From Arenimonas oryziterrae DSM 21050 = YC6267 (GTDB lineage Bacteria > Pseudomonadota > Gammaproteobacteria > Xanthomonadales > Xanthomonadaceae), in NCBI RefSeq assembly GCF_000420545.1, contig NZ_ATVD01000001.1, positions 372,001 to 436,000 on the forward strand: a stretch of DNA of 64,000 nucleotides, written 5' to 3'. Below the pieces are notes generated by a model. It made no database searches, was not told where the DNA came from, and was given only the letters and a program-made list of their open reading frames with translations. Of this stretch, positions 6,735-10,153 are shown piece after piece. Each line of letters starts with the position of its first letter. The first letter of the stretch is position 1. A program made the position numbers and the translations under genes.

Positions 6735-6873
6735 AGGCCGGTCCCTGCGTCTAAACGCTTCCTGAACACGTCCCGCTGCGCCGCGCATCCCCGGTCCCTG
6801 GCCCACGCTCTTTTGCCCTGTGACACGCGCGACATCACGCGCCATGCTTAGCCACCGGGAGTCGGGACACACC

Positions 6874-7389
6874 ATGAACACGCTGACCTGGAACGTCGAC
6901 CTGCAAGCAGCCCGATCGGGCGACGCCGGTGCGCTCGAACGCGTGCTGCAGCGCTCCCGACAGGACCTGCGCCGCTACGCCGAGTACCACTGCCCGATCA
7001 ACGATGCCGAGGATGCAGTGCAGGAGTCGCTGTTCATCGTCTCGCGCAAGCTCATGGACCTGCGTCAGCTCGAATGCTTCGCGTCCTGGCTGTTCCGCAT
7101 CGTCAAACGCGAATGCAACCGCTACAAGCGCATCAAGCGCGCCCTGCTGCAGGTGCCGATCACCGAAGACATCGTCGGCCCCTGCTACCCCGAATCGAAG
7201 GGCATCGCCCGCGACGTCGCCCATGCGATGGAATCGCTGCCGGCGCACTATCGGGAAATCATTCTGCTGCGCGACCTCGACGGCCTGACCATCGAAGAAC
7301 TTTCCCTGCAACTCGGGCTCACGCCGCAAGCCGCAAAAGCGCGCCTGCATCGTGCCCGCAGCCTGGCGCGCGAATACCTCGACGCCTGA
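6874..7389 (+). CDS. ECF-type RNA polymerase sigma factor
   Basis: Short sigma-70 family factor of 171 residues. The sigma-2 region lies at about 30-85 (AEDAVQESLFIVSRKL then FASWLFRIVKRECNRYKR) and the sigma-4 helix-turn-helix at about 112-168 (LPAHYREIILLRDLDGLTIEEL, then TPQAAKARLHRARS). I chose the ATG at 6874, preceded by GGGAG; ATG 6844 and GTG 6820 are upstream alternatives. No anti-sigma factor gene is adjacent. It stands 69 bp before the EGKCG peptide/MNIO operon, a common arrangement for such operons, so it probably transcribes them, perhaps in response to metal or redox stress. The inducing signal is not visible. Confidence 0.88.
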   Translation: MNTLTWNVDLQAARSGDAGALERVLQRSRQDLRRYAEYHCPINDAEDAVQESLFIVSRKLMDLRQLECFASWLFRIVKRECNRYKRIKRALLQVPITEDIVGPCYPESKGIARDVAHAMESLPAHYREIILLRDLDGLTIEELSLQLGLTPQAAKARLHRARSLAREYLDA

Positions 7390-7458
7390 TCCACACCCGC
7401 CGGGTTTCCGGCACTCCCGCTGTTTCCCACCCACTGTAACCACCCAGAGAGAGAAGTC

Positions 7459-7875
7459 ATGTCCAATAAAACCTTCACCCCCGCCCGCCTCGCCGGCGCC
7501 GTCGTCCTCGGTGGCCTGGCTTTCGCCCAGGCCAGCTTCGCGTTCACGCCACTGAGCCAGGGCTATGCCTCGGCCACCGCCACCGCCGCCAAACCCGCCG
7601 AAGGCAAATGCGGTGAAGGCAAGTGCGGCATGGCGATGACCGACACCAACAAGGATGGCCGCATTTCCGCCGCCGAACATGCCGCGCGCGCCAAGACGAT
7701 GTTCGCCGCGATGGACAAGAATCACGACGGCATGGTCAGCGCCGACGAGATGAAGGCCGCGCACGAAGGCAAATGCGGCGAAGGCAAATGCGGTGCCGGC
7801 AAGACGGCCGCGGCGGAAGGCAGCTGCGGCGCCGACAAGGGCAAGACCGAAGGCAGCTGCAGCGGCAAGCACTGA
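7459..7875 (+). CDS. Secreted EF-hand protein with EGKCG motifs, candidate MNIO-modified RiPP metallophore precursor
   Basis: The 138-residue protein has an N-terminal signal peptide (hydrophobic 11-28) and then two EGKCG units at 48-57, two canonical EF-hand loops (62-73 and 86-97, both DxNxDGxxSxxE-like), two more EGKCG units at 103-112, and EGSC at 120-123 and 131-134. All six cysteines lie in EGxC motifs. EGKC cysteines are the modification sites in the HvfA-type copper-binding RiPPs (bufferin relatives) matured by DUF692/DUF2063 enzymes. The next genes encode exactly those enzymes, so this is probably their substrate. The RBS is GAGAGAGAAG. The EF-hand pair suggests a calcium or other metal role, or a leader/scaffold role. 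Confidence 0.82.
7600..7794 (+). repeat. Duplicated [10 protein letters not shown]-coding 30-bp unit
   Basis: Two 30-bp units (7600-7629 and 7765-7794) differ at only three third-codon positions and flank the EF-hand coding part. Each encodes two EGKCG pentapeptides. The arrangement points to duplication of the modification site within the precursor gene. Confidence 0.8.
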
Positions 7876-7882
7876 GCACGTC

Positions 7883-8740
7883 ATGACGGCCATTCGACCC
7901 CTTCCCGCGAATGCTGCCGGCCTCGGACTGCGGCGGGCCCTTCTGGGCCCGCTGCAGGACGCGGCGCCGGACGCGTTCGACTTTCTCGAATGCGCGCCGG
8001 ACAACTGGATCGGCGTCGGCGGCCACTACGGCGAGGCCCTCGCCGACCTGTCCGCGCGACATCCGCTCGCCTGTCACGGGCTGTCGCTGAATCTCGGCGG
8101 CACCTTGCCCTTCGATGAAACGCATCTGCAGCGTCTGCGCCGCTTCCTGGAAACGCACCGCGTGCCGGTGTTTTCCGAGCACCTGAGCTATTGCGCCGAC
8201 GACGGCCAGCTCTACGAACTTCTGCCGATGCCCTTCACCGAGGAAGCTGTGCATCATGTCGCCGGTCGCATCCGTCGCGTGCAGGACGCCCTCGGCCGCC
8301 GCATCGCCGTCGAAAACATTTCCTACTACGCCGCTCCGTTCCAGGCCATGCCCGAGATCGATTTCCTCACCGCCGTTCTCGAGGAAGCCGACTGCGATCT
8401 GCTGCTCGACGTCAACAATGTCTACGTCAACAGCATCAACCACCGCTACGACGCGCTGGAGTTCCTGCATCGCCTGCCCGCCGCCCGCATCGCCTGCCTG
8501 CACGTCGCCGGTCACTACGACGAGGCCGACGATCTCAAGATCGACACGCACGGCGCGCCGGTAAAAGCCTCGGTCTGGGACCTGCTCGCCGAGAGCGCGC
8601 GCTGGCACGGGCCGCGACCGACGGTGCTGGAACGCGATTTCAATTTCCCGCCATTTGCCGACCTGTTGGCGGAAGTCGAAAAAATCCGCACCACGGTGGC
8701 GTCGGCGTCGCCGGAGGAAGCCCGCCATGTCCGCGCCTGA
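7883..8740 (+). CDS. DUF692 multinuclear non-heme iron oxidase (MNIO), HvfB/MbnB-like peptide maturase
   Basis: TIM-barrel iron enzyme of 285 residues that in characterised relatives oxidises cysteines of a peptide substrate to oxazolone/thioamide or thiooxazole groups. Candidate metal ligands are visible in conserved segments: H65 (CHGLSLNLG), E99/H100 (SEHLSYC), E144 (VENISYY), D176/N178 ([10 protein letters not shown]), H207 and H211 (HVAGH), D221/H223 (DTHG) and E250 (LERDFN). The start at 7883 is 7 bp after the precursor stop; its 3' end overlaps the DUF2063 gene by 14 bp. Cytoplasmic. The substrate assignment rests on context. Confidence 0.9.
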
Positions 8741-9503
8741 CGCACTGCACGGACAACAGGCCGTGCTCGCGGCCCATCTGCGCGATCCGCGACAACCGCC
8801 ACCGCCCGGCCTCGAGGCGCGACGCGTGGCGATCTACCGCGAGCTGTTCTTCGACAACATCGAAGGCCTGCTGGCGGGAAATTTCCCCGTCCTGCGGCGC
8901 CTGTTCGCCGGCGAGCGCTGGCAGACCCTGGTGCGCGGATTCTGTCGCGACCATCGCAGCCTCACGCCGCTGTTCACCGAAGTGGCGCGCGAATTCCTTC
9001 GCTATCTCGACACGGTACCGGTGCCGGACGATGCGCCCTGGCTGCGCGAGCTGGCCCACTACGAATGGGTCGAACTGGCCCTGGAACTGTCCGAAGCGAC
9101 CTTAAGCGAGGCGTCGGCAACGACGGCGCCCGCGTCGATCCAGGATCCACTCGACGACGTCCCCAAGCTGTCGCCCCTGGCCTGGCCACTCGCCTACACC
9201 TGGCCCGTCCATCAGATCTGCAAAACCTATTGGCCTCGCCAGACGCCAACGGCTCCGACCTTTCTGCTGGTCCAGCGCGATCCGAACCATCGCGTGCGCT
9301 TCCACGAAATCGACGCCTTGAGCTTCCGTCTGCTGCAGATGATCGAAGACCACCCGGCGCGCCGCGCGCGCGAGCACCTCGATGCGCTCGCGCAGGAAGC
9401 GCAGCCTGACGATCGTGCCGCCTTTCTCGCCAACGGCGCCTCGCTGCTGACGATGCTCGAAACCAACCACGTCCTACTGTCCCCTTTCCGGAGAAACGCA
9501 TGA
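8727..9503 (+). CDS. DUF2063 MNIO partner protein (HvfC/BufC-like)
   Basis: 258-residue protein of the DUF2063 type. The N-terminal domain (about 10-90) includes [26 protein letters not shown], characteristic of the family. DUF2063 proteins pair with DUF692 oxidases and are thought to recognise and present the precursor peptide. The RBS GGAGGAAG lies inside the end of the MNIO gene, the start overlaps it by 14 bp, and the end overlaps the next gene as ATGA, so the three are tightly coupled. There is no signal peptide. Confidence 0.9.
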
Positions 9504-10153
9504 GCCCGACCCTCACCGATCGCTGGCAAGCCCTGACCGAACGCCTCGACGGCGTCGGCGACTGGCTTGCTCCCCTGGGCCTGCGCCTGCTGCTGGCCTG
9601 GGAATTCTGGGAATCGGGCATCGAAAAATATCGCGGCGAAAATTGGTTCGCCGACATCCAGTCGAGCTTCCCGTTTCCGTTCAACCATGTGCCGGCGAAT
9701 ATCAGCTGGGGCATGGCGACCTGGTTCGAGATCCTCGGCGCACTCGCCCTGCTGTTCGGATTGGGCACACGCTTCTTCGCCTTCAGCCTGTTGGTGTTGA
9801 CGATGGTCGCGACGGCGGCCGTGCATTGGCCCGCGGACTGGATGTCGCTGTCCGAGCTCGCCAAGGGTTATGCAATCAGCAATGAGGGCTTCGGCAATTT
9901 CAAACTGCCGCTGATCTTCGCGGTGATGCTGCTGCCGCTGGTGTTCCGCGGCGCCGGCTGCTTCAGTCTCGATGCGTTGCTGGCCAAGTCCATCGGCAAA
10001 CAGGCGCCGGTGCGCAACCACGACACGTTCGCCTGGTCGCTGGGTCTGTTCGTGCTCGGCCTGCCGCTGATCACGCTGATGCCGGCGCTGGGCGCGGCCC
10101 TGGTTGCGATCGCGGTCTTGCTTGCGCTGACCTCGGCCTTCCTCTTCGCCTGA
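9500..10153 (+). CDS. DoxX-family membrane protein of the MNIO operon
   Basis: 217-residue integral membrane protein with the DoxX signature early ([18 protein letters not shown]) and hydrophobic helices at roughly 25-45, 75-110, 133-150 and 170-215. It is longer than a minimal DoxX protein. DoxX-like genes are frequent last members of DUF692/DUF2063 operons (called HvfD in the Haemophilus case); the biochemical role is unknown, with membrane redox or export support proposed. It starts in an ATGA overlap with the DUF2063 gene. Confidence 0.82.

Follow-up and report, generated by a model that had tools for sequence, protein, structure and literature searches.

A probable captophorin-type operon of Arenimonas oryziterrae whose precursor carries an EF-hand pair between two cysteine arms

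Introduction

Captophorins (oxazolin HvfA, fontiphorin FonA, gonophorin) are precursors with EGKCG repeats that are encoded with HvfB/HvfC-type genes. EGKCG products, those of HvfA and FonA included, carry 5-thiooxazoles, earlier described as oxazolone-thioamides, and bind copper (PMC13419390; PMC13097082; here and below, cited papers are represented by excerpts of their text). Here we analyze an operon with the same repeats and the same types of genes, located in a 64,000-nt stretch of the genome of Arenimonas oryziterrae DSM 21050 (contig NZ_ATVD01000001.1, positions 372,001 to 436,000), referred to as the window. At positions 6874-10153 it encodes, all on the + strand, an extracytoplasmic function (ECF) sigma factor, a probably secreted precursor and HvfB-, HvfC- and HvfX-type proteins. 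We propose, with a probability of about 0.7, that it belongs to the EGKCG-class captophorins (oxazolin/HvfA-like), that its precursor holds an EF-hand pair between two cysteine arms and is related to EfhP of Pseudomonas aeruginosa, and that the operon works by the mechanism outlined in the Discussion. HvfX is shared with HvfA, which has a signal peptide as our precursor probably does. The differences from captophorins are the EF-hands, a term absent from PMC13419390 and PMC13097082 as searched, and the presence of two of the cysteines in EGSC motifs.

Fusions of EGKCG repeats with EF-hands in MNIO clusters are already published (Antoine et al. 2025, PMC12452194). As here, that class has an EGKCG domain (secreted, as ours probably is), two EF-hand_5 domains and neighbouring MNIO, DUF2063 and DoxX genes. 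According to the excerpts its EF-hands are C-terminal to a short EGKCG domain, whereas in our precursor EGKCG arms flank the EF pair, and in our locus an ECF sigma gene is present in cis. EfhP (PA4107) also resembles our precursor: it has two canonical EF-hands, four EGKCG repeats (PMC11559002) and adjacent DUF692 and DUF2063 genes (PMC4053335), and its binding of Ca2+ was measured at 13.7 uM (PMC9132961). The activity of the efhP promoter is lower without CarR, of the CarSR two-component system, at most conditions tested. Two differences appear nevertheless. The Pseudomonas precursors of our set (to which EfhP itself was not aligned) carry cysteines only before the EF pair, have a C-terminal tail and show a 27-residue spacing of the loops; and efhP depends on CarSR, and no homologue of our sigma factor was found in the 16 Pseudomonas-type loci of the set. 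Finally, the Caulobacter sigmaF/bufferin 1 (DUF2282) clusters have, as here, a sigma factor gene in an MNIO cluster, but unlike here a DUF2282 precursor and possibly an anti-sigma, NsrF. In the excerpts of PMC12452194 sigma genes are mentioned for Buf1 clusters only, Fig. 3f aside, and the titles and abstract openings of the literature searched report no ECF gene in cis in EGKCG clusters.

Results

Organization of the operon

The five genes are arranged as follows (window coordinates).

6874..7389, + strand: ECF sigma factor, 171 aa (profile matches, orthologue alignment)
7459..7875, + strand: precursor peptide, 138 aa, with a putative Sec-type signal, an LSQGY motif and the order EGKCG/EF-hand/EGKCG/EGSC
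7883..8740, + strand: HvfB-type MNIO maturase (DUF692, PF05114), 285 aa (NF003818)
8727..9503, + strand: HvfC-type partner protein (DUF2063 + NGO1945_C; NF050145)
9500..10153, + strand: HvfX-type DoxX membrane protein (NF050144)

An earlier reading of the DNA made without database searches (the sequence-only reading) had proposed these five genes with their motifs and coordinates, and all are present. It also described the downstream genes as overlapping, which is correct for the MNIO and DUF2063 genes (14 nt) and the DUF2063 and DoxX genes (4 nt) and incorrect for the precursor and MNIO genes, separated by a 7-nt gap (7876-7882). The sigma and precursor genes are 69 nt apart, and the neighbours and gaps in the window show no anti-sigma gene adjoining that of the sigma factor, in agreement with the same reading. 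The gene upstream of the sigma gene is, from its sequence, presumably gcvP. A single PF05114 gene, that of the operon, was found in the 3.09-Mb genome.

Profile models place the products as follows. The precursor scores 38.2 bits with Pfam EF-hand_5 (cut-off 25.9) and 48.2 bits with the NCBIfam model KCGExKCG_twice (NF050137; cut-off 19.5). The maturase matches Pfam MNIO PF05114 at 2.1e-99 and the HvfB model NF003818 with 408.7 bits (cut-off 360), a better fit than the BufB-type model NF050167, whose 262.1 bits are below its cut-off of 310. The partner protein matches DUF2063 at 9.9e-22 and NF050145 (HvfC) with 280.7 bits (cut-off 142), and the membrane protein matches DoxX at 2.8e-19 and NF050144 (HvfX) with 144.6 bits (cut-off 80). 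For the sigma factor both PF04542 and PF08281 (regions 2 and 4) exceed their cut-offs, and the sigma70-ECF superfamily model gives 55.4 bits (cut-off 42.9).

Motifs and predicted fold of the precursor

The following elements are read in the precursor gene.

7600..7629, + strand: N-terminal EGKCG pair (Cys51, Cys56)
7642..7677, + strand: EF-hand loop 1, residues 62-73 (Pfam, AlphaFold2, motif reading)
7714..7749, + strand: EF-hand loop 2, residues 86-97 (Pfam, AlphaFold2, motif reading)
7765..7794, + strand: C-terminal EGKCG pair (Cys106, Cys111)
7816..7830, + strand: EGSCG (Cys123)
7849..7863, + strand: EGSCS (Cys134), a doubtful modification site

EGKCG starts at residues 48, 53, 103 and 108, EGSCG at 120 and EGSCS at 131; the six cysteines are thus those named earlier (51, 56, 106, 111, 123 and 134). 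Four of the six follow the EF pair, so the cysteine repeats are not confined to its N-terminal side. The description of both EF-hand loops as perfect is borne out by canonical residues at positions 1, 3, 5, 6, 8 and 12. In an alignment of 18 of the 40 precursors that carry cysteines on both sides of an EF pair (see below), D1, D5, G6 and E12 of both loops are invariant, and so are the EGxC cysteines on the two sides, whose lack of conservation had been named as an observation that would speak against the sequence-only reading. Residues 1-28 form a hydrophobic start ending in ASFA, by eye a Sec-type signal. Right behind the signal, 77 of 79 precursors have the motif F-A-x-L-x-x-G-Y, which may serve as a leader recognition element.

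AlphaFold2 (18 of these chimaeras) predicts order at residues ~60-100, with block means of 81-88, paired EF loops and, as expected of such a pairing, short strands at 68-70 and 92-94, while the flanking arms are mostly below 50. The matches returned by Foldseek are EF-hand proteins, none at E <= 0.001.

Which cysteines could be modified can be judged from FonBC. This enzyme pair modifies a substrate with two repeats (8 Da lost) and leaves one with a single repeat unmodified; at position 3 A, R and T are tolerated while F and E severely impair processing, at position 5 only Ala is tolerated among the variants tried, and the excerpts name Ser at neither position (PMC13097082). By analogy the adjacent EGKCG pair fits the substrate preference of FonBC, and EGSCG (Cys123) is a plausible substrate of the same kind. 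EGSCS is the only one of the 519 EGxC motifs in the 79 precursors without Gly after Cys. Cys134 is a doubtful site because no Gly follows it and FonBC has a preference at position 5.

Distribution of the design among relatives

A search with the maturase confirmed 328 relatives, the best 80 of which were kept, so that the counts describe a sample of near relatives. Precursors were readable in 78 of these 80 loci (L039 and L089 are cut), i.e. 79 with that of the window. The EF pair has cysteines on both sides in 40 of the 79 and only before it in 15 (14 Pseudomonas and one Paucimonas metagenome-assembled genome); it is missing in 24, a class in which L082, with a degenerate first loop, is miscounted. 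EGKCG repeats were found in every precursor read, EGSC motifs in 17 of 79. A search for other precursors with an EF pair between EGKC repeats, as the sequence-only reading had advised, is therefore positive, and its view that the EGKCG-EF-EF-EGKCG design and the EGSC sites are unusual is not supported: the design is present in 40 of 79 precursors, window included, and its fusion class is published, and EGSC is found in 17. In Lysobacteraceae, then, both the symmetry and the EGSC sites are commonplace. Across the order, 152 of 299 genomes contain KCGExKCG repeats, and the plasmid-borne MNIO relatives (352 records) are all below 60% identity.

Within the genus, 27 genomes were searched and 21 gave a maturase match. 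A. metalli, A. terrae and A. donghaensis have the same precursors as the same-genus loci. Two same-genus maturases at 48-51% identity (L137 in genome G310, L138 in G305) accompany other Cys-rich precursors with repeats. In the L102 precursor a long insert separates the first EGKCG pair from the EF pair.

Loop spacing of the EF pairs

The loop starts are 24 residues apart in the window and in the nearest chimaera (L032/L121), the only one of 54 other EF-bearing precursors to match this spacing; in the remaining chimaeras of the set it is 27, save in L048 (29) and L102 (36). A family-wide search with the window's EF pair, from which the best 29 other loci were fetched, gave 22 EF-hand proteins that stand alone and lack EGxC, the spacing being 24 in each, and seven chimaeras with a spacing of 26-27. 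Identities to the window's EF pair are about equal (55-66% for stand-alone proteins, 60-65% for chimaeras); therefore spacing alone separates the two sorts. On a quick maturase tree the four precursor states need seven changes, the least possible being three, and the clade of the window and L032 has weak support (41). The simplest reading of these sequences is that the EF pair was independently recruited or replaced, gain and loss being indistinguishable.

The ECF sigma factor

A close homologue of the sigma factor precedes the precursor in 36 of the 80 loci (some loci are cut), both EF-hand and EF-less precursors being represented among them. The sigma-precursor gap in these 36 relatives ranges from 13 to 290 nt; the absence of an anti-sigma gene itself was read in the window. 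All 37 orthologues share H39, C40, C81 and H125, whereas Cys68 and Cys104 are variable. Aligning 33 of the 37 leaves 50 of the 171 positions without variation. When region 2 was compared by eye in nine further ECF-like sigmas encoded in the genome (two ECF-like proteins, L191 and L198, being shown only in part), these proved to have no His-Cys pair and no equivalent of Cys81; one has Tyr-Cys. The structure model of the sigma factor is of low confidence (predicted template modelling score, pTM, 0.36); its helix order would place the end of helix 18-39 next to the later part of helix 63-92, so that H39/C40 and C81 could be near each other.

ECF sigmas switched on by two-component systems without an anti-sigma are known, e.g. 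SigE/CseBC (PMC8999054), and in Haemophilus RpoE2, encoded elsewhere, affects an hvf-type cluster (PMC7907618).

Elements upstream of the sigma and precursor genes

Four elements were identified.

6751..6767, + strand: tandem box of 11-bp period, CTAAAC-GCTTC-CTGAAC (reverse strand GTTCAG-N5-GTTTAG), PhoP-like, a candidate response-regulator site
6785..6812, + strand: ECF-type promoter-like element GMAYC-N18-CTCTT
6821..6846, + strand: sigma70-like element TGAC-N18-CATG, a second possible promoter
7399..7412, + strand: GC-rich hairpin GCCGG-GTTT-CCGGC between the sigma and precursor genes

The upstream patterns were found by dyad counting, followed by pattern tests on 30 non-redundant sigma upstreams out of 37. 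The tandem box, as TRAAY-N6-TRAM, occurs in 26 of the 30 (31 of all 37; Markov shuffles mean 0.1, max 2), GMAYC-N18-CTCTT in 20 (25 of 37; shuffles mean 0.04, max 1) and TGAC-N18-CATG in 10 (12 of 37; shuffles mean 0.09, max 1), the carriers of the latter all lying within the Arenimonas-like clade of the maturase tree. These counts are descriptive because the patterns were chosen post hoc and kinship keeps the sequences alike. Among 3,478 background stretches of 200 nt, one has the tandem box, five have GMAYC-N18-CTCTT and none has both. In the 300 nt before the precursor of 42 sigma-less loci the tandem box was found three times and the two other elements not at all. Two of the Lysobacter loci, L045 and L070, have no sigma gene and keep the tandem box before the precursor, as if the regulator acted directly. 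The tandem box is no remnant of gcvP, since gcvP was found in just seven of the 80 loci.

From box start to the start of GMAYC-N18-CTCTT the distance is 31-33 nt in 13 of 16 cases and 42-43 nt in three. The spacing is thus helically phased, with one turn between the two classes. Conservation of these elements strengthens the earlier claim of ECF control, which stays a prediction. A longer form of the ECF-type element has two sites in the own genome against three for the control; the second site, C1:486298, is antisense at a two-gene junction and is probably due to chance.

The hairpin may set the expression of the precursor relative to that of the sigma factor. In 54 of 79 loci a hairpin of 5 bp or more lies no farther than 75 nt from the precursor start, for 18.2 expected from shuffles. 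In relatives, sigma-less loci included, the hairpin is often CCGCGGG-N4-CCCGCA, 30-48 nt before the precursor start; a hairpin at -48 to -30 is found in 37 of 63 non-Pseudomonas-type loci and in 3 of 16 Pseudomonas-type loci. For a consensus, 49 non-redundant sequences were taken from 57 of the 79 loci, 16 Pseudomonas-type loci and six with unsure starts having been excluded beforehand; 13 further sequences, most without the usual hairpin, were dropped from the alignment, and the row of the window was lengthened to 68 nt. On this MAFFT alignment of 36 of the 49 sequences RNAalifold returned no pairs.

A PhoPQ-like system as candidate regulator

On the opposite strand the tandem box reads RTTYAG-N5-GTTYAG. 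The PhoP consensus of P. aeruginosa is GTTCAGNNNNNRTTCAG (PMC3156716), from which the box of the window differs by one mismatch, and the site of BqsR (the PA14 name of CarR), TTAAG-N6-TTAAG, has the same layout (PMC4682146). Within two mismatches the consensus is found in 19 of the 30 sigma upstreams, against a background of 28 in 1,243 stretches 215 nt long. BqsR/PhoP-type pentamer pairs were not found upstream of the 16 Pseudomonas-type loci.

The own genome encodes a regulator whose best NCBIfam model is PhoP (221.8 bits, under the cut-off of 336) and a kinase whose best model is PhoQ (175.6 bits, under the cut-off of 497). Their operon begins with a small gene, 68 nt upstream of which is a GTTCAG-N5-ATTCAC box. 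This gene, a 128-aa open reading frame (L145 2200-2586, minus strand), has a start resembling that of a secreted protein and matches no Pfam or NCBIfam model. The PhoP-like regulator recurs in 25 of the 27 genomes of the genus, with 85-95% identity except in the own genome, and all 25 loci have a box of the GTTCAG-N5-ATTCAC type on the coding strand, some 475-600 nt upstream of phoP, near-identical relatives being counted repeatedly; the background is 9 in 179 stretches 1,100 nt long. The box of this type is found at none of four other regulator loci and at the one locus of a 53% paralogue. When nine OmpR-family regulator loci were scanned whole, the single match was at L145, that of the PhoP-like regulator; a looser pattern gave one match at such regulators, L144, and the 350 nt before five of the nine regulator genes contain no tandem box.

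A genome-wide regulon of the tandem box was considered and rejected: the exact form CTRAACN5CTRAAC occurs once in the own genome, as does the reversed control, and with at most one mismatch there are six places (the exact one included) for nine control places; these forms, however, do not capture the box of the phoP operon. One of the six, a one-mismatch tandem box at G000:C1:181030-181046 (L117), lies ~70-120 nt before a gene that by eye is porin-like.

Discussion

We propose the following mechanism for this captophorin-like operon. HvfC would dock the leader (signal peptide and LxxGY), and HvfB would oxidize Cys51, 56, 106, 111 and probably 123 to 5-thiooxazoles, with a loss of 4 Da per cysteine, Cys134 being modified poorly or not at all. 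After Sec export of the product, its EF pair would fold on Ca2+ in the periplasm, and the two modified arms, themselves disordered, would chelate copper, thereby buffering it under stress. Supply would be set at the level of transcription: the operon would be switched on by a PhoPQ-like system through the tandem box, and by the ECF sigma from its own promoter with no anti-sigma protein. PhoPQ also senses Ca2+, in addition to Mg2+. For the latter the source is PMC3156716. Control by PhoPQ and by the sigma factor, like all of the chemistry, is predicted from sequence. Of the sequence-only reading, an MNIO-linked EGKC precursor with an EF pair, for which copper binding is likely, in an ECF-linked operon, is supported; the rarity claimed for it is not.

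Several observations weigh against this proposal. The HvfA equivalog model NF050188 gives the precursor 36.9 bits, below its cut-off of 95; it is therefore a relative of HvfA and not an HvfA equivalog. Among the 17 nearest same-genus loci EF-hands are present in that of the window and in L121 and absent in 14 (L125 is cut). As most congeners read have no EF-hands, the EF pair is dispensable for the core function. Regarding regulation, the tandem box is missing from L032/L121, the nearest chimaera, whose ECF-type element is kept; 11 of the 30 sigma-upstream boxes are off the PhoP consensus at three or four places; the boxes of the sigma and phoP promoters are on opposite strands; and in the excerpts of PMC7559202 the PhoP sites of Stenotrophomonas maltophilia are not established. 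A genus-wide regulon of the box (27 genomes) was rejected as well, with 43 matches, four of them the operon itself, for 43 of the reversed control; the strict form used in the regulon scan misses the box of the phoP promoter, so this test is weak.

The product could instead be chiefly a periplasmic sensor of calcium (or of Ca2+ and a metal) like EfhP, its modified cysteines tuning sensing or signalling and not buffering copper. In PAO1, 31% of the Ca2+ response depends on EfhP, which also controls genes of iron uptake, and excerpts of the literature propose for it a dual Ca2+/Fe-sensing role through the EGKCG cysteines; in our operon both canonical loops are kept and a PhoP-like box is present. 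But EF-hands come and go over the seven changes of the tree, and 14 of the 16 near orthologues readable in the genus lack them, whereas no precursor read is without EGKCG repeats; we consider this explanation rather unlikely. That the EF pair is a neutral passenger or linker derived from a stand-alone EF-hand protein is very unlikely in our view: its 24-residue spacing is that of the 22 stand-alone proteins among the best 29 family-wide loci and it is missing from most congeners, yet both loops retain their ligand positions, and pairs spaced by ~27 recur between EGKCG arms in other genera.

Another explanation concerns the switch. The ECF sigma could sense metal or redox state directly through H39-C40 and C81 (sigma2), which would explain the missing anti-sigma and make the tandem box secondary. 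The four residues invariant in all 37 orthologues beside the variable Cys68 and Cys104, the lack of the His-Cys pair and of the Cys81 equivalent in the nine other ECF-like sigmas and the precedent of CorE, a metal-sensing ECF, speak for it; however, with 50 of 171 positions invariant, invariance is weak evidence, there is no CorE-type Cys-rich tail and confidence in the model is low. This too we regard as rather unlikely. Bolder, and distinctly unlikely, is the view of a two-metal device, in which a Ca2+-folded EF hub carries two thiooxazole arms and periplasmic Ca2+ gates copper chelation, supply running from a two-component system for divalent cations (PhoPQ-like) to an anti-sigma-free ECF sigma with a conserved His-Cys/Cys metal site of its own, and the two kinds of EF pair having been recruited independently into the same position. 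If it were true, this independent recruitment would argue that the coupling is useful.

Returning to the captophorin-like operon with an EF pair between two arms, its general kind is known; new are the 24-spaced EF pair in a hub-and-two-arms precursor and the PhoP-like-box/ECF switch. The both-sides layout and the dedicated sigma switch are a little-described variant. The switch would be a mild surprise to specialists, and the conserved box, the ECF-type element, the sigma without anti-sigma and the box on the phoP side make the induction signal of such operons directly testable, as is the question of a calcium-copper coupling. Beyond the layout of EfhP, the EF-hand/EGKCG class now takes in hub-and-two-arms precursors, which are common in Lysobacteraceae. 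Natural comparisons are offered by orthologues that have or lack the EF pair, and these environmental bacteria may serve as models for the role of a calcium module in a probable copper-binding ribosomally synthesized and post-translationally modified peptide.

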